Part shown: piece by piece, positions 29,601-59,067 of the stretch | Position numbering within the stretch: position 1 is the stretch's first letter | Layout of the letters: every line of letters starts with the position of its first letter | Source: Candidatus Eremiobacterota bacterium | GTDB lineage: Bacteria > Vulcanimicrobiota > Vulcanimicrobiia > Vulcanimicrobiales > Vulcanimicrobiaceae | Length of the DNA stretch: 64,000 bases | Direction of reading: 5' to 3' | Assembly: GCA_019240525.1 (NCBI GenBank) | Contig: JAFAYE010000001.1 | Span: 2,453,300-2,517,299 of the forward strand | Translations under genes and position numbers: made by a program | The notes under the pieces: generated by a model | Database searches by the model: none | What the model was told of the DNA's origin: nothing | The model's input: only the letters and a program-made list of their open reading frames with translations

Positions 29601-30315
29601 AACCCGCGAGACCCTGCGCTTCCGCATTGGCGGGCGTCGCACCGGTGTACACCTGCAACTCCAGCTGGCCGAGGGACGAGAGCGAACCCGATGGATAATT
29701 ATCGAAGGCTCGGTTGACCGGAATCCCGTCGAACTCATAGCCTACTTCGGAAGAATCGCCACCCCGCACGTGCACTGCCTGCAAATAGCCGTTTTGATTT
29801 GCCGGAACGTACGCGCCGGGAACCGATGCGATGGCCGAATAGGCGCTATTTAGCCCCCCGCCCCCACCCAGCACGGCGGTGCGCGCTTGCTGTGCGGCGT
29901 TGATCGAGTAAACGTCGGCAGTGGTCCCGGAGCGAACCAAGCTCGAAGTGCTTCGTGAGGTTACGTTCGCGATCGTGCGCAGAGCGACGCGCATGCTCAA
30001 CGACAGCGTTTGCTGTGCGTCCGCGAGCACGGCGATTCCGGCGTACGAGAGCGGCGTATACCCGTTCTTTTGTAACGAGATCGTGTACTCGTCGGGCGCG
30101 AGTGAAACGAAGGCAAAGTGTCCACGCGCATCGGTCGTCGCGATCGCGGTCTGAGACGGGCTCGTGACGCTGACCGTGACGTCCGCAAGCGGCGCCGTCG
30201 TGCCGTATGCGGTAACGACCCCGCTGATGCCTCCCGTCGTTCCAGCCTTCGTAACCATCATCGCCGCGATGAAGAGAACGCCGGCGATGGCTACGTGTCG
30301 CGTCGCCTTCGTCAT
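26623..30315 (-). CDS. TonB-dependent receptor with N-terminal carboxypeptidase-regulatory-like domain
   Basis: 1230 residues. Domain order: signal peptide (~1-24); CarboxypepD_reg-like beta-sandwich (~28-110, GGISGVVTAYGTTAPLADV and HFAFVSLAPDEYTISLQKNG); plug (~130-250, including ADVYSINAAQQA, VRGGDSSEVGYEFDGIPVN and LAGFINQVIKTG); then a long outer-membrane barrel with aromatic-rich strands. It ends YFSLRLSI, a barrel-type C-terminus. Such receptors import large or scarce substrates using TonB energy. Its start overlaps the upstream gene (ATGA) and its stop overlaps the oxidoreductase, so import and oxidation are probably coupled. Confidence 0.9.
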   Translation of the reverse strand: MTKATRHVAIAGVLFIAAMMVTKAGTTGGISGVVTAYGTTAPLADVTVSVTSPSQTAIATTDARGHFAFVSLAPDEYTISLQKNGYTPLSYAGIAVLADAQQTLSLSMRVALRTIANVTSRSTSSLVRSGTTADVYSINAAQQARTAVLGGGGGLNSAYSAIASVPGAYVPANQNGYLQAVHVRGGDSSEVGYEFDGIPVNRAFDNYPSGSLSSLGQLELQVYTGATPANAEAQGLAGFINQVIKTGTYPGYATADLSAGTPTFYHSTNVEAGGATPDRMFSYYVGIGGYNQDYRYVDQFGGAALANEFGQQIGQCPTAKNLPGTVLPSCYTNGAPNVGLNGQPGWILGPFGFGTINAANLAVRTSVANFHIAVPHRDDGLRDDIQLLYDNDEIFTTFFSSVNDEGFNNWINTVGTFPPYYLDAWQYKGQVGTFLPPRYTSLVTPYFYPSSPPHPFDGAIPDPYNQRDRGYNGQAIVKLQYQKNFNSSAYLRVYGYTYYSDWIENGPLESLQPYAFYDSGDYEINNHTRGVSVSFADQLSPENLLEAEGSYTTSTGARIYNEQMFQFGNGYANAFAVLVNRNNPFSGTCYHFNGGGAPATPTTCSDGQASGVSYGLLPTFLRLNNPTSHDDLDGASCGGGPCAYYVVENGAYGLNNTVTPYFTGYSITDQWRPNDRLFFNFGVRVDNYDYVGANTNFGAARDFWFNAFNQDTCFDNQTLTLVDRSALLASSPWSTNSQKPCSAFGKQYVNANMQNTPGSFDYNIPQPRLGATYTLSPNTVVRASYGRYNEQPSAAYEQYNGLQQNLPDALAQFYPLGFTTPGHQVAPSVSYNSDFSLEHHFAGTDMSFKLTPFLRQTQDQIENFYINYTTGLTSGLNAGYQTSRGFEFQFDKGDFSRNGFAAQLSFAYTYATVKYSLLPNGTNVLSPINSGIAQYNAYTKACSPGGSAYGKTEFGQSLCGATSDGSSAAPCYTHNGHADLSCKAGDVANPYWLSPAFSLYDPNASYLPYSIFPGPVGSGVNAFNYPYVATLLLNYKHNRFALTPSLQFVAGNRYGAPLTTPGVDPAAGCGKPLSGSTVGDPRYPYGAAGGSPFNADNPGCAATLSIPDPYTGQFDGIGAFREPAQLLGHLQISYQVSPRINASLTLANLLQTCFGGQHTAFTYFWSNQTCLYTNLIGGPSSPPVGNAYNPGANVQTFLRYPYEPYIGTYNDQTSSLAQPFNAYFSLRLSI

Positions 30316-33080
30316 TCACAAACCTCCGGTTTGGGATCGGGTGATAATTTGTGCTCGGCCAAGAACCGCCGATAAGCGATCATGGCCGTTTCGAACTGAT
30401 CGTGAATCGCGGCAGCTTCACGCTGGTGTGGGGGCAATGGCGGACCTTGCGAGAGCGCAACGACACCTTGCAGAATCGTCAGGCGCTCGCGAAGGCGGTC
30501 GGGACGCAGCAGTTCGTCTTCGGAGTTCACCACTCCCGACGTGAGCATCGCATAGACGCCGTTGGCATCGCGTCGAAGTGACCCGCGAAGCGAATCGAGC
30601 CGATTCAACGCAAGGTCGGTGACCGAAAGCTCGTCATTGAGCTCGGTGATAAAGCGGTACCGTTGGAGATATTGCTCGGCGGTCCACGATGCGCGCGGGT
30701 CAGAACGAACGTCGAGCGATTGCGACACGGTGGTGGCGCCGGCGTGAAGTTCGACGGCGTAGCTTCCGGGTAGGACGGTCGCACCCGGGCCGCCGCGATT
30801 CCACGAACGCGCGCGAAGCCACGGAACCGGCGAAGTTTCGGCAAGATCCCAGGTGGTGCGCTGGACCCCCGCTCCGTTCGGCGCATCGAAACAACGCACT
30901 CTGTGGCCGGCTGCATCGCGGACCTCGACCCACGTACGTGTCGGCGCCGGGAGGTAGTACGTCAGCAGGGCGCCGTCGGGCGGATTCTCGCCGGAATATG
31001 CACCTGCGGCCACGCAGCATTCGTCGGGATGCGTTCCGTAATCGCTCGTCCACCAGCGATACCACGTGTACGCGGTCCGCAGGGGAAAGAGGCGCGGCGC
31101 GGCGCTCGCAATTGCGCCGCCGAGCCCGCGGATCGCACCGATGTCGTCGAGAATCCAAAATCCGCGACCATGTGTCGCTACGAGCAGATCGTGACGATCG
31201 GGTTGGACGCGCATGTCGTGCACCGCAACCGACGGCATATTCAAACGGAGGCTCTGCCAACGCGAGCCGCGGTCGAGGCTGAACCAAACGCCCTGCTCTA
31301 AGCCCGCGTACAGAACGTTGGGATCGCCGGGATCTTCGCGTACGACGTGAACGTATTGATCGTGCGGTAAGCCGTTGACGATTGTGCGCCACGTGGCGCC
31401 CGAGTCGTCGGTGACGAGGATATACGGTTTCGGATCGCCGAGATTGTGGCAATCCAGGGCGACGTAGGCTCGGCGCGCATCGGCACGCGACGCGTCCACC
31501 GTGTCAATTCGTCCCCATTGCGGAATATCGCGCGGCGTGACGTTCTGCCAGTGCACTCCGCGGTCGGGGGTCAACTGGACCAAACCGTCGTCGGTGCCGA
31601 CCCAGATTCGCGACGAATCGACGGGCGAAGGGGCTATGTCGAGAATGGTGTCGTAGAACTCGGCGCCCGATACGTCGGTGTTGATCGGACCGCCGGGAAG
31701 TTGTTGTTTTGTCGAATCGTTGCGCGTTAGATCGGGACTGATGACTCGCCAACTGCGCCCCCGATCGTCCGTTTTGAAAAGCACGTTCGCTCCGTAGTAT
31801 GCGACCGGCCCGGCTTCGCCATTGGCGGTCCCCAAAGGGGCGAATGCGATCGGCGCCTCCCAGTTCGAGCGGAAGGAGAGGCCCGCCAGCGCGCGTCCGT
31901 TCGTGTCCGTCACGGAAGGTGAGATATCGTAGTTTTGCCGCGACCGCAAATCGAAAATTCCAAGCTGCCCGTTGAGCTGGTTCACTCCGACGTTCCAAAT
32001 TGAAGACGGAGATCCGGGTTCGGGCCAGACCCACGAGCCATCGCCGTCGTTGCCGACGTCGCGCCAATCGCTGTTTTCGATTCCAAGCTGGCTCAGCGAG
32101 TCGGAGGGTCCGCAGTAGGCATCGTTGTCTTGAATGCCGCCACAAATCTGATAGGGATTCTGATCGTCGTATCCGATGTGGAATATTTGCGCCAACACGA
32201 CGTTCGAGCGCCAATCCCACGTTTGACCGCCGTCAACCGAAATCGGCGCGCCGCCATCGTTGGCTTCGATGATGCGCCGCCCGTCGCGCGAGATCCACAT
32301 GCCGTGGTGATCTTGATGCACCGCGCTGGTGATGTCGCGATACGTCCTGCCGCCGTCGCGCGTTTCGATGAGGTCCTCCGATGAGAAGAAGACGTGATCG
32401 GCGTTCGTGGGGTCGACGGCAAGCCGGCTCATGTAAAACGGCCGCTGATTGACGAGCGTATCGCGGGTCATCAGACGCCAGCGATCGCCGCCGTCATCCG
32501 AGCGCCATACGACGCCTTCGTTGGACTGTATCACGGCGTAGACGCGCTTCGGAGCTATTCCCAAACCAATGCGACCCATGGCTCCGCCCGGCAATCCATT
32601 GCCGCGGAGGCGGCGCCACGTCGCGCCTCCGTCGACCGATCTGAAGATACCGTCGAACGGACCGCCGCTCGAAAAGCTCCACGGTTTGCGGCGGAACTGC
32701 CAAATGCCGGCAAAGAGCCGGTTGGAGTTGCTCGGATCGAGCACGATGTCGGAGGCTCCGCTCGATGCGCCGACGTAGAGCGCGCGCTGCCAGTTTTTTC
32801 CGCCGTCGAGGGTGCGATAGACGCCGCGTTCGGAGCTATCGCGATACGGGTTGCCGACGGCCGCGATCCAGAGGTGCCGCGAGTCGTGCGGATCGATGAC
32901 GATCTGCGCGATCGCCCAAGTCCGGCGCAACCCCGCGTTGCGCCAATGAGTGCCCCCGTCGTGCGTTACCCAAATGCCGTCTCCATAAGAAATATCGTTG
33001 CGCAGGTTGGGCTCGCCGGTTCCGACCCATACCGTGTTGGGATCGCGCGGATCGATCGCGATTGTCCCAATGGCTCCCAC
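30312..33080 (-). CDS. VPS10/sortilin-like beta-propeller protein (BNR repeats); true start lies upstream
   Basis: 922 residues from the first canonical start, GTG 33080. The frame stays open upstream and encodes the usual family beginning: a hydrophobic signal (LALILGAGVALPPLPGLA), then WRNVGPAVAGGRTSGVAG and DGGVWKTSNAGLTW, placing the real start near 33302 or slightly before. No ATG, GTG or TTG occurs in this frame between an in-frame stop near 33411 and 33080. BNR Asp-box blades recur (SVDGGATWRRL, SDDGGDRWRLM, DDRGRSWRVI, SLDRGSRWQSL). A C-terminal domain follows the propeller. Probably periplasmic or surface-located; ATGA overlap with the TonB receptor. Confidence 0.75.
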   Translation of the reverse strand: MGAIGTIAIDPRDPNTVWVGTGEPNLRNDISYGDGIWVTHDGGTHWRNAGLRRTWAIAQIVIDPHDSRHLWIAAVGNPYRDSSERGVYRTLDGGKNWQRALYVGASSGASDIVLDPSNSNRLFAGIWQFRRKPWSFSSGGPFDGIFRSVDGGATWRRLRGNGLPGGAMGRIGLGIAPKRVYAVIQSNEGVVWRSDDGGDRWRLMTRDTLVNQRPFYMSRLAVDPTNADHVFFSSEDLIETRDGGRTYRDITSAVHQDHHGMWISRDGRRIIEANDGGAPISVDGGQTWDWRSNVVLAQIFHIGYDDQNPYQICGGIQDNDAYCGPSDSLSQLGIENSDWRDVGNDGDGSWVWPEPGSPSSIWNVGVNQLNGQLGIFDLRSRQNYDISPSVTDTNGRALAGLSFRSNWEAPIAFAPLGTANGEAGPVAYYGANVLFKTDDRGRSWRVISPDLTRNDSTKQQLPGGPINTDVSGAEFYDTILDIAPSPVDSSRIWVGTDDGLVQLTPDRGVHWQNVTPRDIPQWGRIDTVDASRADARRAYVALDCHNLGDPKPYILVTDDSGATWRTIVNGLPHDQYVHVVREDPGDPNVLYAGLEQGVWFSLDRGSRWQSLRLNMPSVAVHDMRVQPDRHDLLVATHGRGFWILDDIGAIRGLGGAIASAAPRLFPLRTAYTWYRWWTSDYGTHPDECCVAAGAYSGENPPDGALLTYYLPAPTRTWVEVRDAAGHRVRCFDAPNGAGVQRTTWDLAETSPVPWLRARSWNRGGPGATVLPGSYAVELHAGATTVSQSLDVRSDPRASWTAEQYLQRYRFITELNDELSVTDLALNRLDSLRGSLRRDANGVYAMLTSGVVNSEDELLRPDRLRERLTILQGVVALSQGPPLPPHQREAAAIHDQFETAMIAYRRFLAEHKLSPDPKPEVCE

Positions 33081-33300
33081 AGCTTCGGACGGCCAAACGT
33101 TCTGCCACGTCAGCCCAGCGTTGGAGGTTTTCCAAACGCCGCCGTCCGCGCCCCCGAAATAATAAAGATTCGCATCGGCGTTGGTGCCCGCGACGCCCGA
33201 TGTCCGGCCGCCCGCAACTGCCGGGCCGACGTTGCGCCATGCGAGGCCTGGCAGCGGCGGTAACGCGACGCCGGCGCCGAGGATGAGCGCGAGCGTCGGC

Positions 33301-34416
33301 TTAGGCTCCCATGACGCCGAGATAATGGCGATCGAAGGCGCTGAGCAATCCTTCCGCGTTGGAGTATGGGCCGGGTGAGTAGACGCGCGAATGCAGGCCG
33401 AGCTGCGTCAACTGATTCACGTGCCAATCTTGGCGGTTCGTCAGATCCCAAAAGTCGACGGCGTCGCTGGGATCGAAACCCGGCTGGGCGATCGTGGCCG
33501 GGTCGAAAAGAAATGCGCAGACGACTTCGGTGCGATCCGGTGACAGCGGTTTGAGGTAGTGCACCATGACGTAGTCCGGATGGAGGCTGAGCAAGAGCGA
33601 CGGAAATATCGTGTAATAGTAGACTCGATCCAGATCGGCGCCGCTAACGCTGCCGATCGGTGGCCGCGACGTATGGCCGGTCGTCGTCAGCGCCGTACCG
33701 TGCGCGCGCAACTCGGAGTATCCGCCGAGAAATGGACCCTCGGGCAAATCGTTTCGGCCGCTGTCGGACGGCGAAAGCTTGTCGAGTTGCGGGTGTACGA
33801 GCGGACAATGGTAACACTCGGAATAGTTTAAGAAGACGAGCTTCCAATTACATGCAAGTTCGTAGGTAATGCTGCGTGCGGTTCGTAGGCTAGCGATCTT
33901 CCACCGAGCGAATCGATCGAAGATTGGCGCAAACGCGCGCTCGAAGGGGACAACGTCATCCTGCTCGAGCGAAACGAAAATGAAGCCTTCCCACAGGCCG
34001 ACCGAAGCCTGATGCAGCGGATACTCGCTGCGATGGAAGTTCGGGACTTCAGCCATGTTGCGCGCGGCTTTGAGCGCCCCATCGAGACCGTACGTCCAGG
34101 CATGATACGGGCATTGGATCGAGCCCGAAAACCGGCCCGAGGCGGCCTCGCACATACGCGATCCGCGGTGGCGGCAAACATTGTAGAAGGCACGGACGCG
34201 TCCTTCGGAATCGCGCGTGACGATGAGGTTTTCTCCGCCGCGCTCGACCGTGAAGAAGTCGCCGGTCTGCGCGATCGACTCCTCGCGTCCCACGGCGAGC
34301 CACTCGCGGCCAAAGATGCGTGCTTGCTCTTGCGCGAAGATTTCTGGTGAGATATACCACGGGGCTGCCAGCGTTCTAGCGCCGGCACTAACGTTGGGCC
34401 TCACAAACGTCCGCAT
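33301..34416 (-). CDS. Rieske [2Fe-2S] ring-hydroxylating-type oxygenase, alpha subunit (1)
   Basis: 371 residues. The Rieske cluster ligands are C81, H83 (NVCRHRG), C102 and H105 (CPYHAWTYG). The mononuclear iron site is in E200-x2-H203-x4-H208 (ECYHCPLVH), with an Asp near the C-terminus (DFWDLTNRQDW). The pattern is closest to oxygenases that demethylate quaternary amines (glycine betaine or stachydrine type). It needs a reductase that is not in the window. First gene of the minus-strand operon with the sortilin-like, TonB and PYROXD2-like genes; divergent from a paralogue at 34526. Confidence 0.87.
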   Translation of the reverse strand: MRTFVRPNVSAGARTLAAPWYISPEIFAQEQARIFGREWLAVGREESIAQTGDFFTVERGGENLIVTRDSEGRVRAFYNVCRHRGSRMCEAASGRFSGSIQCPYHAWTYGLDGALKAARNMAEVPNFHRSEYPLHQASVGLWEGFIFVSLEQDDVVPFERAFAPIFDRFARWKIASLRTARSITYELACNWKLVFLNYSECYHCPLVHPQLDKLSPSDSGRNDLPEGPFLGGYSELRAHGTALTTTGHTSRPPIGSVSGADLDRVYYYTIFPSLLLSLHPDYVMVHYLKPLSPDRTEVVCAFLFDPATIAQPGFDPSDAVDFWDLTNRQDWHVNQLTQLGLHSRVYSPGPYSNAEGLLSAFDRHYLGVMGA

Positions 34417-35629: not shown

Positions 35630-36804
35630 GCGGCATTGGCGGGCGCGACTACGACGCTATCGTCGTGGGTCTTGGCGCACTTGGGAGCGGCGCGTCGTAC
35701 TGGCTTGCAAAGCGCGGGGCCAAGGTATTGGCGCTCGAGCAGTTTGCTCGCGGGCACGATCGCGGAAGCTCTCACGATTGGTCGCGCATCATCCGAAAGT
35801 CATACTTTACGCCTGCTTACGTAGCGCTGGCAAAAGAAGCATACGTCGCTTGGGAATCACTCGAACGCGACGCGGAGGAGCAGCTCGTCCTGAAGACCGG
35901 TGGACTCGACCTCGGGCCGCGCGACGGGGCGATCGCGCTCTCGAGCTATGCGGATTCGATGCGTAGGTGCGACGTCGAATTTGAAGAGCTCGACGCGGCG
36001 GAAATTCGCAAGCGCTGGCCAGTCTGGCAGATTGGCGACGAAATTCACGGCCTTTTTGCGCCCGAGAGCGGCATTGTCGCCGCCGAACGCGCGACGGCCT
36101 CGTTTCGCCGTTGCGCGACCGCCTTTGGTGCGACTCTGCGCGACGGAACGCCGGTTACGGCGCTGCGCGACGTCGCCGGTGAGATCGAAGTCGAAGCCGG
36201 CGGTGTGCGGTATCGCGCCGGCAAGCTGATCATTGCGGCGGCGGCGTGGACGCCGCGGCTGCTGGCGCACTTCGGCCTCTCGATCCCATTCGAGGTGACC
36301 AAGGAGCAAGTGATCTACTTCACGCCCCGCGATCTCGCGAGCTTCGCTTTCGGCTCGTTCCCTATTTGGATTTGGATGGACGATCCGTCGTTTTACGGAT
36401 TTCCCGTATTCGGCGAGTCTGGTGCCGTCAAGATCACGCAGGACTGCGGCGGAAAGCCGGTCGACCCCGACAGGCGCGGATTCGAAGAAGATCCGGCGAT
36501 CACGGCGCGAGTTACCGGCTTTCTACAGCGATATCTTCCAGCGGCGCTGGGGCCCGTGCACCGTTTGAAGACGTGTCTTTACGCGCTCACCCCCGATCGC
36601 GACTTTATCGTGGACAGACTTGCCCGCCATCCCAACGTTTTCGTGGCGGTCGGCGGGGGTCATGGCTTTAAGTTTGCCTCGGTGCTGGGACGTATTCTCG
36701 CCGAGCTTGCCCTCGATGGTGCAACCAACTCCGACATCTCGGCTTTTCGAATCGATCGGGAAATCTTGCAGATGGCCCACCCGCCGAAAACATATATGCT
36801 CTAG
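35626..36804 (+). CDS. Monomeric sarcosine oxidase / N-methylamino-acid oxidase-like flavoenzyme
   Basis: 392 residues if initiated at CTG 35626; GTG 35665 gives 379 and removes YDAIVV of the first Rossmann strand. FAD motif DYDAIVVGLGALGSG, then SHDWSRIIRKSYF, the MSOX-type Arg-rich flavin contact. The residue for covalent flavin attachment is present: C317 in KTCLYALTPDRDF, aligned by me with MSOX Cys315. The C-terminal GGGHGFKFASVLGRILAEL is also family-typical. The enzyme oxidatively demethylates secondary or tertiary N-methyl amines to formaldehyde and H2O2. It is translationally coupled to Rieske oxygenase 2. The stop overlaps the convergent gene by four bases. Confidence 0.85.
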   Translation: MSGIGGRDYDAIVVGLGALGSGASYWLAKRGAKVLALEQFARGHDRGSSHDWSRIIRKSYFTPAYVALAKEAYVAWESLERDAEEQLVLKTGGLDLGPRDGAIALSSYADSMRRCDVEFEELDAAEIRKRWPVWQIGDEIHGLFAPESGIVAAERATASFRRCATAFGATLRDGTPVTALRDVAGEIEVEAGGVRYRAGKLIIAAAAWTPRLLAHFGLSIPFEVTKEQVIYFTPRDLASFAFGSFPIWIWMDDPSFYGFPVFGESGAVKITQDCGGKPVDPDRRGFEEDPAITARVTGFLQRYLPAALGPVHRLKTCLYALTPDRDFIVDRLARHPNVFVAVGGGHGFKFASVLGRILAELALDGATNSDISAFRIDREILQMAHPPKTYML

Positions 36805-55574: not shown

Positions 55575-55603
55575 TTGCCGGGGATTGACCCCGGCGGTAT
55601 ACT
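55575..55603 (+). promoter_or_regulatory. topA promoter, leaderless type
   Basis: TTGCCG (55575-55580) and TATACT (55598-55603) are separated by 17 bases, a near-consensus housekeeping promoter. The -10 ends seven bases before the GTG at 55611, so transcription should start on or next to the start codon. There is no Shine-Dalgarno before the GTG. Confidence 0.65.
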
Positions 55604-55610
55604 AGGCCCC

Positions 55611-57704
55611 GTGAAAAAGCCCCTGATCATCGTGGAATCGCCGACAAAGGCGCGAACGATCAAGAAGTTTCTGCCGGCGCGTTACGCGGTAAAAGCATCG
55701 GTGGGGCACGTGCGTGACCTTCCAAAGAGCACGCTCGGCGTCGACGTGGAGCGCGATTTCGCGCCCAAGTACCTCACGATCAAAGGCAAGGGCGACGTCA
55801 TCAAGGAGTTGCGCGGTGCGGTCAAAGGCGCAACCGACGTCTATCTGGCGACGGATCCGGACCGCGAAGGTGAGGCCATTGCCTGGCATCTTGCGGAACT
55901 ATTGAAACTGTCGAGTCCGCAGCGGATCGAGCTGCACGAGATCACCAGAGAGGCGGCACTCGCGGCTCTCAAGGATCCGCATCACATCGATATGGATCGC
56001 GTCAACGCACAGCAGGCGCGGCGAATTCTCGACCGACTCGTCGGCTATAAGATATCGCCCTTACTCTGGGCAAAGGTCCGCAGCGGCTTGTCGGCGGGGC
56101 GCGTCCAGTCCGTCGCGGTCAAGCTTATCGTGGATCGCGAGCGCCAGATCGAGGCGTTCCTTCCGAAAGAGTATTGGACGATCGCCGCATTGCTCGCAGG
56201 CGAGAATGGCGCGGAGGCGACCGAATTCTCAGCTGAGCTGGTCAGCCGCCGCGGCGAGAAGATTGAGGTAAGCACAGAATCGCAAGCATCCGCAATCGTC
56301 AGTGACCTCGACCATGCCGAGTTCCGTGTTTCGGCGATCAAGCGCCGCGAAGTGCGCCGCAACTCCCCGGCTCCTTTTACGACCTCGACTCTCCAGCAAG
56401 AGGCGTCGCGCAAGCTCAAGATGCGCGTGCGACGGGCGATGCAGGTCGCGCAGAGCTTATATGAAGGCGTCGACCTTGGCGGCGAGGAGGGAACCGTCGG
56501 CCTCATCACCTACATGCGGACCGACTCAACGCGAATCAGCGATCAGGCGCGCGCGACGGCTCGCGAATTCATCGTCGGAACGTTCGGCGAAGAGTTTCAC
56601 GGCGGCCGGCTCCATCGCGTTAAGGAAGGGGCGCAGGATGCCCACGAAGCGATCCGCCCGACCTCGGTTTGGCGTACGCCCGAGCGTCTTGCCGGCGTTT
56701 TGCGACGCGACGACCTGAGACTCTATTCGATTATCTGGGAACGTTTCGTCGCCTCACAAATGGCCGCCGCGCTCTTCGATCAAACGGTTATCGATATTGC
56801 TGCAGGTCAGTACGGCTTCCGCGCGACGGGCACCGTCATGCGTTTCCCCGGCTTCACGCGCGTCTACGAGGAGTCTCGCGACGACCAAAGCTCGGGCAAA
56901 GCGCGAGTCCTTCCCGAGTTACATGAGGACCAGCGCCTCGAGTGCCGCAAGCTCGAGCCCAAGCAGCACTTCACGGAACCGCCTCCGCGCTACACCGAAG
57001 CCGCGCTCGTCAAGGCGCTCGAAGAAAACGGCATTGGGCGACCCTCGACGTATTCGACCATCGTTGAAACCATTCAAGCGCGGGGCTACGTTACGCAGCA
57101 AGAACGCCGGTTCTTGCCGACGCCGATTGGCGCTGCCGTGAACGATTTGCTGGTCGAACACTTTCCGAAGATCGTCAACCTCGACTTTACCGCGAAAATG
57201 GAGGGCGATCTCGACCGCGTCGCCGAGGGGAACGAGGACTGGATCGGCCTGCTGCGGCGCTTTTACGGTCCGTTCGAGAGCGAACTCGAGCAAGCGGAGA
57301 AGAAGTTGCCGCGTCTCGAGCTGCACGACGAGCCGACCGACGAGATCTGCCCGACCTGCGGGCGGCCGATGGTGATCAAGCATGGGCGCTTCGGTAAGTT
57401 CATTTCTTGCAGCGGTTATCCCGAGTGCAAGACGACGAAGCCCATCGTCAAAGAGACCGGAGCAGCCTGTCCAAAGTGCGGGGGCGCGATCGTCGAACGC
57501 CGCTCCAAGAAGGGACGCACGTTCTACGGTTGCGCCAATTATCCCAAGTGCGACTTCATTTCATGGGACGCGGTCGTTCCCGAACGATGCCCGGTCTGCG
57601 GCTCGCACGTGCTCGCCAAAACCAGGCGCGGCGAGGTGCATTTGCAATGCGCCGCCGACCGCACGCACGATGTTGCGGGACTCGCGAAAGCCGCATCTTC
57701 GTAA
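55611..57704 (+). CDS. topA: DNA topoisomerase I
   Basis: 697 residues from GTG 55611, chosen because type IA enzymes begin KKPLIIVESPTKART. Toprim domain (ATDPDREGEAIAWHL, acidic metal ligands), DNA-gate domain with active-site Tyr301 in LITYMRTDSTRIS, and HEAIRPT, the conserved motif after the catalytic Tyr. The C-terminus has three zinc-ribbon modules: CPTCG and CSGYPEC; CPKCG and CANYPKC; and a shortened CPVCG/C form. Relaxes negative supercoils in the cytoplasm. Ends at the AAGGAG of trmFO. Confidence 0.95.
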   Translation: MKKPLIIVESPTKARTIKKFLPARYAVKASVGHVRDLPKSTLGVDVERDFAPKYLTIKGKGDVIKELRGAVKGATDVYLATDPDREGEAIAWHLAELLKLSSPQRIELHEITREAALAALKDPHHIDMDRVNAQQARRILDRLVGYKISPLLWAKVRSGLSAGRVQSVAVKLIVDRERQIEAFLPKEYWTIAALLAGENGAEATEFSAELVSRRGEKIEVSTESQASAIVSDLDHAEFRVSAIKRREVRRNSPAPFTTSTLQQEASRKLKMRVRRAMQVAQSLYEGVDLGGEEGTVGLITYMRTDSTRISDQARATAREFIVGTFGEEFHGGRLHRVKEGAQDAHEAIRPTSVWRTPERLAGVLRRDDLRLYSIIWERFVASQMAAALFDQTVIDIAAGQYGFRATGTVMRFPGFTRVYEESRDDQSSGKARVLPELHEDQRLECRKLEPKQHFTEPPPRYTEAALVKALEENGIGRPSTYSTIVETIQARGYVTQQERRFLPTPIGAAVNDLLVEHFPKIVNLDFTAKMEGDLDRVAEGNEDWIGLLRRFYGPFESELEQAEKKLPRLELHDEPTDEICPTCGRPMVIKHGRFGKFISCSGYPECKTTKPIVKETGAACPKCGGAIVERRSKKGRTFYGCANYPKCDFISWDAVVPERCPVCGSHVLAKTRRGEVHLQCAADRTHDVAGLAKAASS

Positions 57705-57708
57705 GGAG
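57703..57708 (+). promoter_or_regulatory. Consensus Shine-Dalgarno pointing to an ATA start
   Basis: AAGGAG overlaps the topA stop and lies six bases before ATA 57715. That ATA is in frame with the conserved trmFO N-terminus ([12 protein letters not shown]). No ATG, GTG or TTG occurs in this frame before the FAD motif. Confidence 0.6.
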
Positions 57709-57714
57709 CGTCCC

Positions 57715-59067
57715 ATAGAGCGTCTCGGCATTATCGGCGCCGGCCTTGCGGGCTGCGAAGCTGCATGGCAGGCGGCCCGACTCGGCGTTCAGGTTGACCT
57801 CTACGAGATGCGCCCAGTGCGTAGCGGACCGGCGCACAAGACCGGCACGCTCGCGGAACTGGTTTGCAGCAACTCGCTTCGCGGTGTCGCGCTGGAGAAT
57901 GCCGTCGGATTGCTGAAGGAGGAACTTGCGCGTTTCGATTCGCTCATCATCACGGCGGCGCGCGAAACGGCGGTTCCGGCCGGCGGAGCATTAGCGGTGG
58001 ACCGGGAGAAGTTCGGCGCGGTCATCGAAGCGCGCATCGCCGCTCAGCCGCGAATCCGTCTGCATCGCCAGGAGATGCAAGCCATTCCGCTCGACCGTCC
58101 CACCATCGTCGCCTGCGGCCCGCTGCCGAGCGAAGATTTTTTGGCGAACCTCGACGCGCTCTTGCGCGAGCACCATCCGCAGGACGGCCGCCGCCTGCAC
58201 TATTACGATGCCGCTTCGCCTATCGTCGCGGCGGACTCGATCGACGAAACTCCGATGTATCGGAAGTCCCGTTATGACAAAGGCAACGGTGACGACTACC
58301 TCAACGTTCCGCTCGATCGCAACGAGTACGCGCAGCTGCTTAACGATCTGCGGAGGCTCGAGCGCCATCCGGCCAAGGAGTTCGATGGGACGAAGTATTT
58401 CGAGGGATGTCTTCCAATCGAGGAAATGGCCGATCGCGGCGACGAGGTATTGCGCTTTGGGCCGCTCAAGCCGGTGGGCCTGCGCGATCCGCGCAACGGA
58501 GAGACGCCTTATGCGGTCGTTCAGTTGCGTAAGGAGAATCGCGAAGGCACAGCATACAACCTCGTTGGTTTCCAGACGCGGATGACGTGGCCGGCCCAAC
58601 GGGAAGCCTTCGCGAAGCTTCCCGGTCTGGCGCAGGCGGAGTGGCTTCGTCTTGGCGTGATGCATCGAAACACGTTCATCGACTCGCCGCGGTTACTCGA
58701 TGCGCGGTTAAAGCTGCGCGGTACCGAGGCGCTCTACTTTGCCGGGCAAATCACGGGTGCGGAGGGATACGTGGAGGCTGCGGCATGCGGGGCGATGACC
58801 GGCGTTCACGCTGCGCGAGCGATTTTGGGCTTGGCTCCAATCGATTTTCCGCCCTTCACCGCCTTCGGGGCGGTCGTCGCGCACTTGCAAAATGTGGAAA
58901 CGCCCGACTTCCAGCCGTCAAACGTGACCTGGGCGCCGCTCGTGGCCCGGTCGTCGCCGGGCGAGAGGCGGCGAGGCAAGCGCGAGCGGCGGCGCATCCT
59001 GGCGGAGCATGCGATTGCGGCGATCGAAGCGCTAGCAGCTGAAACCCTCTGCGCACCGGTAGGGTAA
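57715..59067 (+). CDS. trmFO: Methylenetetrahydrofolate-tRNA (uracil-54-C5)-methyltransferase
   Basis: 450 residues if started at ATA 57715, the normal TrmFO length; the first ATG in frame (about residue 32) would remove the FAD-binding [12 protein letters not shown]. Family hallmarks: [71 protein letters not shown], and [19 protein letters not shown] at the C-terminal FAD site. It makes ribothymidine at tRNA position 54 using folate and FAD. Cotranscribed with topA and hslVU. Confidence 0.88.

Follow-up and report, generated by a model that had tools for sequence, protein, structure and literature searches.

Sequence comparison points to AUA as the start codon of trmFO in an uncultured Candidatus Eremiobacterota bacterium

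AUA is rare as a start codon in general because it is rejected by IF3. Near-cognate starts autoregulated by IF3 have been described for infC, which begins with AUU in E. coli, with ATC in Streptomyces (PMC5472188) and with AUA in S. aureus (PMC13009471). The AUA starts of S. aureus comprise infC, ccpN and citZ and give reporter yields of about 10-30% of AUG (PMC13009471), while in Streptomyces the GTC start of sigR is repressed by IF3 (PMC5472188). Near-cognate initiation driven by a Shine-Dalgarno (SD) sequence thus has precedents in infC, Streptomyces sigR and S. aureus ccpN, and the trmFO gene described here would add a further gene with an ordinary mechanism.

The trmFO gene of the uncultured soil bacterium studied here resembles the infC class in having a near-cognate AUN codon at the conserved N-terminus together with a properly spaced SD (AAGGAG, 6 bases), and infC of the same genome itself starts with ATA. 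TrmFO differs in not acting on initiation, so that there is no feedback loop; control of trmFO by IF3 may nonetheless occur. With ccpN and citZ of S. aureus (PMC13009471) trmFO shares AUA and a strong SD outside infC, and the AUA of citZ is likewise restricted to one lineage; the S. aureus starts were shown by ribosome profiling and reporters, whereas that of trmFO is proposed by comparison alone. Streptomyces sigR is likewise a gene other than infC with a non-canonical start, for which automatic annotation wrongly chooses a canonical codon further upstream, but there the codon is GTC and is part of a regulatory balance with rsrA, whereas trmFO would use AUA and has no known partner.

The genome is a Candidatus Eremiobacterota draft of 2.8 Mb in 5 contigs. 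The window, i.e. the whole stretch of DNA that was analysed, comprises 64,000 nucleotides, and the features of the topA-trmFO locus are collected in Table 1. The trmFO product was matched over its full length and above the curated cut-offs by the NCBIfam models NF003739 (564.6 bits, cut-off 262) and TIGR00137 (517.9 bits, cut-off 428.65). Its translation, also when aligned to the T. thermophilus protein (PDB 3g5q), contains the N-terminal FAD motif GxGxxG and the conserved Cys-containing motifs. The open reading frame is intact, shows 76-80% identity to relatives and retains the conserved Cys of the LVCSNS and EGCLPIEE motifs. By these matches the product is a member of the folate/FAD-dependent m5U54 tRNA methyltransferase family and is predicted to be a tRNA-modifying enzyme.

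Table 1. Features of the topA-trmFO locus (positions in the window)
Feature	Position	Strand	Remarks
Probable sigma-70-type promoter of topA-trmFO	55575..55603	+	TTGCCG 55575-55580, 17 bases, TATACT 55598-55603
topA, upstream gene	55611..57704	+	TIGR01051, 804 bits; GTG start at 55611 conserved in relatives
In-frame ATG, rival trmFO start	57670..57672	+	465 aa, inside topA, without SD; adjoined by TTG 57673
AAGGAG (SD)	57703..57708	+	six-base spacer to the trmFO ATA
ATA, proposed trmFO start codon	57715..57717	+	aligned with ATG, GTG or TTG of relatives
trmFO coding sequence	57715..59067	+	450 codons, from ATA (57715-57717) to the stop (59065-59067)

A preliminary description of the locus had placed the trmFO start at ATA behind a strong SD. 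The sequence confirms AAGGAG six bases 5′ of the ATA and in the proper frame, the region being read as GTAAGGAGCGTCCCATAGAG, and the 450-residue product predicted from that start was borne out. The topA stop codon TAA (57702-57704) overlaps the SD. When relatives within the Candidatus Eremiobacterota were aligned, as the same description had suggested, the ATA (ATA GAG CGT CTC GGC) fell into a column occupied by ATG (ATG GAA CGC TTG ACG in G018, ATG GAA CGG CTA ACC in G014), GTG (GTG GAG CGG CTG CTG in G030) or TTG (TTG GAA CGG TTG ACG in G008). Support for the proposed start also came from T. thermophilus TrmFO (3g5q), which belongs to the same family and shares the N-terminus ERxxxxGAGLAG from residue 2, the difference being the ATA as first codon in the present gene. 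Residue 2 of the T. thermophilus protein, the E of ERVNVVGAGLAG, aligns with the E that follows the ATA, so that the ATA falls on Met1. In most TrmFO homologues the start lies 3-9 residues ahead of the FAD motif.

The SD of trmFO ranks among the strongest in an SD-poor genome: among 66 genes with a conserved start, AAGGAG or better was found in only 6, and 39 had no recognisable SD. Out of 71 AGGAG-N5-8-ATA sites examined in the genome, that of trmFO was the sole one heading a long conserved open reading frame without a nearby canonical start. This class of sites was not enriched in the genome (69 versus 119 for the reversed pattern), and the genome-wide search for further AUA-start genes by this pattern did not return a second convincing case. 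A search of the genome for a 16S rRNA carrying the anti-SD gave no match, and the predicted RNA fold at the trmFO start was unremarkable, the site being not especially open (z -0.34).

Among 68 distinct Eremiobacterota N-termini of TrmFO, a canonical start was absent within 12 codons in five, namely ATA in the present genome and in G003 and ATC in G007, G009 and G031. In other bacteria one of 25 trmFO genes was flagged, and that one has an ATG at codon -14, leaving effectively 0/25. In the trmFO tree the present gene groups, with modest support, with those of G002 and G011 (both ATG), while that of G003 groups with those of G006 (GTG) and G008 (TTG). Since the two are not sisters, their ATA starts appear to have arisen separately, and on these alignments the canonical trmFO start is lost more than once within the family. 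Where the start is expected, the trmFO genes of G009 (L182/L039) and G007 (L009) read ATC GTA, and the 22 codons upstream contain no canonical one.

Of the alternatives to a start at ATA, the strongest, though considered unlikely, is an error of sequencing or consensus: the gene would in truth carry ATG, with base 57717 misread or a minority variant taken up in the assembly. A single substitution would be enough, the assembly has draft status, with 5 contigs, and ATG is present in G014 and G018 as well as in G002 and G011, the nearest relatives sampled, so that one wrong base would explain the present trmFO taken by itself. Against an error stand the independent recurrence of ATA in G003 and the ATC in G007, G009 and G031, and also the purA, SolA-like and sortilin-like genes of the same genome (see below), which are without any canonical start and which errors cannot explain without wrecking reading frames. 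A systematic G-to-A error at CCATGG was considered as well and rejected; the window shows no sign of it, as CCATAG is not in excess (8 on both strands versus 9 CCATGG).

Translation from the in-frame ATG 57670, 45 bases upstream of the ATA, or from TTG 57673 is less probable still. Upstream of the FAD motif the trmFO frame stays open for 118 codons, in which ATG 57382 occurs besides these two. Hence the earlier statement that every ATG, GTG and TTG of the frame lies downstream of the conserved N-terminus does not hold for these three, but between 57676 and codon 26 of the conserved core the frame is free of such codons. A gene caller would probably choose ATG 57670 or TTG 57673, both being canonical codons in an open frame, and the product would then be 15 (14) residues longer, 465 (464) in all, with the added codons overlapping topA. 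However, all three upstream codons are located within topA, lack an SD and would add an N-terminal extension that is not conserved, while the strong SD would be left serving nothing. The position of the start before the FAD motif in homologues and the Met1 of the T. thermophilus protein likewise argue for the ATA. A decaying start in a trmFO that is losing function, the enzyme being dispensable given a RumA/TrmA-family methyltransferase encoded in the genome (RumA-family gene, 335 bits), would fit the repeated loss of the canonical start in the family but is very improbable in view of the intact and conserved reading frame, the complete TrmFO match, the retained Cys residues and the excellent SD.

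Translation of trmFO from AUA at 57715 is therefore regarded as probable on the comparative evidence. The SD would place the AUA in the P site, where the ordinary fMet-tRNA (anticodon CAU) would read it with a third-position C-A mismatch, so that TrmFO would begin with Met. As IF3 discriminates against AUA, initiation would be damped and a low TrmFO output is expected, which would follow the IF3 level as for infC of this genome. Coupling to the termination of topA is plausible, since the topA stop codon overlaps the SD. The ATA itself may have replaced a canonical start recently.

The infC gene of this genome, inspection of which had also been proposed, starts at ATA, and the encoded IF3 looks normal: it is well conserved and aligns normally with solved IF3 proteins. 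ATA is the infC start in every genome of the same genus with a complete N-terminus and in the other genera of the family examined, with G030 (ATC) as the one exception. Outside the family, the infC start was ATC in f2 and ATT in f3 and f7; one f6 genome has ATA, and one f5 genome apparently ACG. In G056 (L371), a more distant relative, infC seems to begin with ACG (GGGAGGTGAAAGGATACGAGTAAG). The rarity of ATA starts through IF3, as assumed beforehand, applies in general, but AUA is an established infC start codon in this lineage. By likeness to E. coli, Streptomyces and S. aureus (PMC5472188, PMC13009471), the ATA of infC suggests IF3 autoregulation. An altered or UAU-anticodon initiator tRNA as cause of the AUA start was searched for and none was found; the single initiator tRNA is standard, with CAU anticodon, C1xA72 and three G-C pairs.

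Further genes without a canonical start were identified. The SolA-like gene (N-methyl-tryptophan oxidase family; to about 36801, plus strand) has ATT at 35635-35637, 5 bases past the TGA of the upstream gene, where relatives have ATG or GTG, and no canonical start occurs in the 22 codons upstream as far as the in-frame stop. The sortilin/VPS10-like gene (30315-33407, minus strand, about 1000 residues, N-terminus near 33284-33311) has no ATG, GTG or TTG in frame before the conserved core, over the 56 codons that reach up to the in-frame stop, and its start site in relatives is CTG (G013), GTG (G007) or TTG (G026). The near-essential purA (L356, G000:C1, about 2562199) has no ATG, GTG or TTG among the 47 codons that separate it from the upstream in-frame stop; its start column reads GTG, TTG or ATG in the genus, CTG in G015 and G017, ATA in G013 and GCC in the present genome, where a GTA is located two codons upstream. 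In G013, ftsY lacks a canonical start in the 8 codons up to its in-frame stop, and fmt starts with CTG in G025 and with GTG or TTG in five relatives. An oppD-like gene and topA were also considered as start-less and were rejected, both having conserved GTG starts. In several relatives (L003, L006, L032; the rsmB region of G007, L228) a repeat like CATCCTGAGCTTGTCGAAGGA is located directly at gene starts and sometimes supplies both SD and ATG (AGGATG).

For an estimate across genes, 264 kb of the present genome were set against 280 kb of syntenic G013 sequence, and the N-terminus was well defined in 73 ortholog pairs. At the conserved N-terminus, a canonical start was absent from trmFO, purA and the sortilin-like gene in the present genome and from the sortilin-like, purA, ftsY, phosphate-transport-like and AlkB-like genes in G013. 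The same procedure applied to 68 pairs of two Exiguobacterium genomes returned no gene without a canonical start. The difference (8/146 versus 0/136, Fisher p = 0.007) was obtained by hand inspection that was not blind, and with a control that is less GC-rich and has more similar pairs (median identity 84.5 versus 73%). Class-mates of matching GC content, taken as a further control, yielded only 12 usable pairs, with one ambiguous case (purL-like). As baselines, in 36 genome triplets with about 69,000 start codons only 4 had switched to CUG and 2 to AUU (PMC5622118), and annotated AUA, AUC and AUU starts amount to about 0.1% in both E. coli and M. tuberculosis, with M. leprae reaching 1.9% (PMC11052298); the two baselines are based on annotation, which favours canonical codons.

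It is possible, and we hold it tentatively, that near-cognate starts (AUA, AUU, AUC, CUG and perhaps others) occur in several percent of the genes of this Eremiobacterota family, including the essential purA and ftsY, i.e. far above model bacteria, with normal IF3, normal initiator tRNA and AUA-start infC, stringency of start-codon choice then being a lineage-level trait. This lineage-wide reading is plausible only, given a hand check that was not blinded, an unmatched control, too few GC-matched pairs and baselines biased by annotation. The wider pattern is plausibly a more novel and more interesting lead than trmFO taken singly. As gene callers normally recognise no start codons but ATG, GTG and TTG, they give genes like trmFO wrong starts or miss them. 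If true, the lineage would offer a natural setting in which to ask how strict ribosomal start-codon choice must be and whether slow-growing soil bacteria relax it.

Upstream of topA, the TATACT of the putative promoter and the stretch before it are conserved in six genomes. The TATACT ends 7 bases before the conserved GTG at 55611, and this closeness suggests that the topA-trmFO mRNA may be leaderless. The TTG at 55575, with which the longest listed topA reading frame starts, is part of the -35 element.
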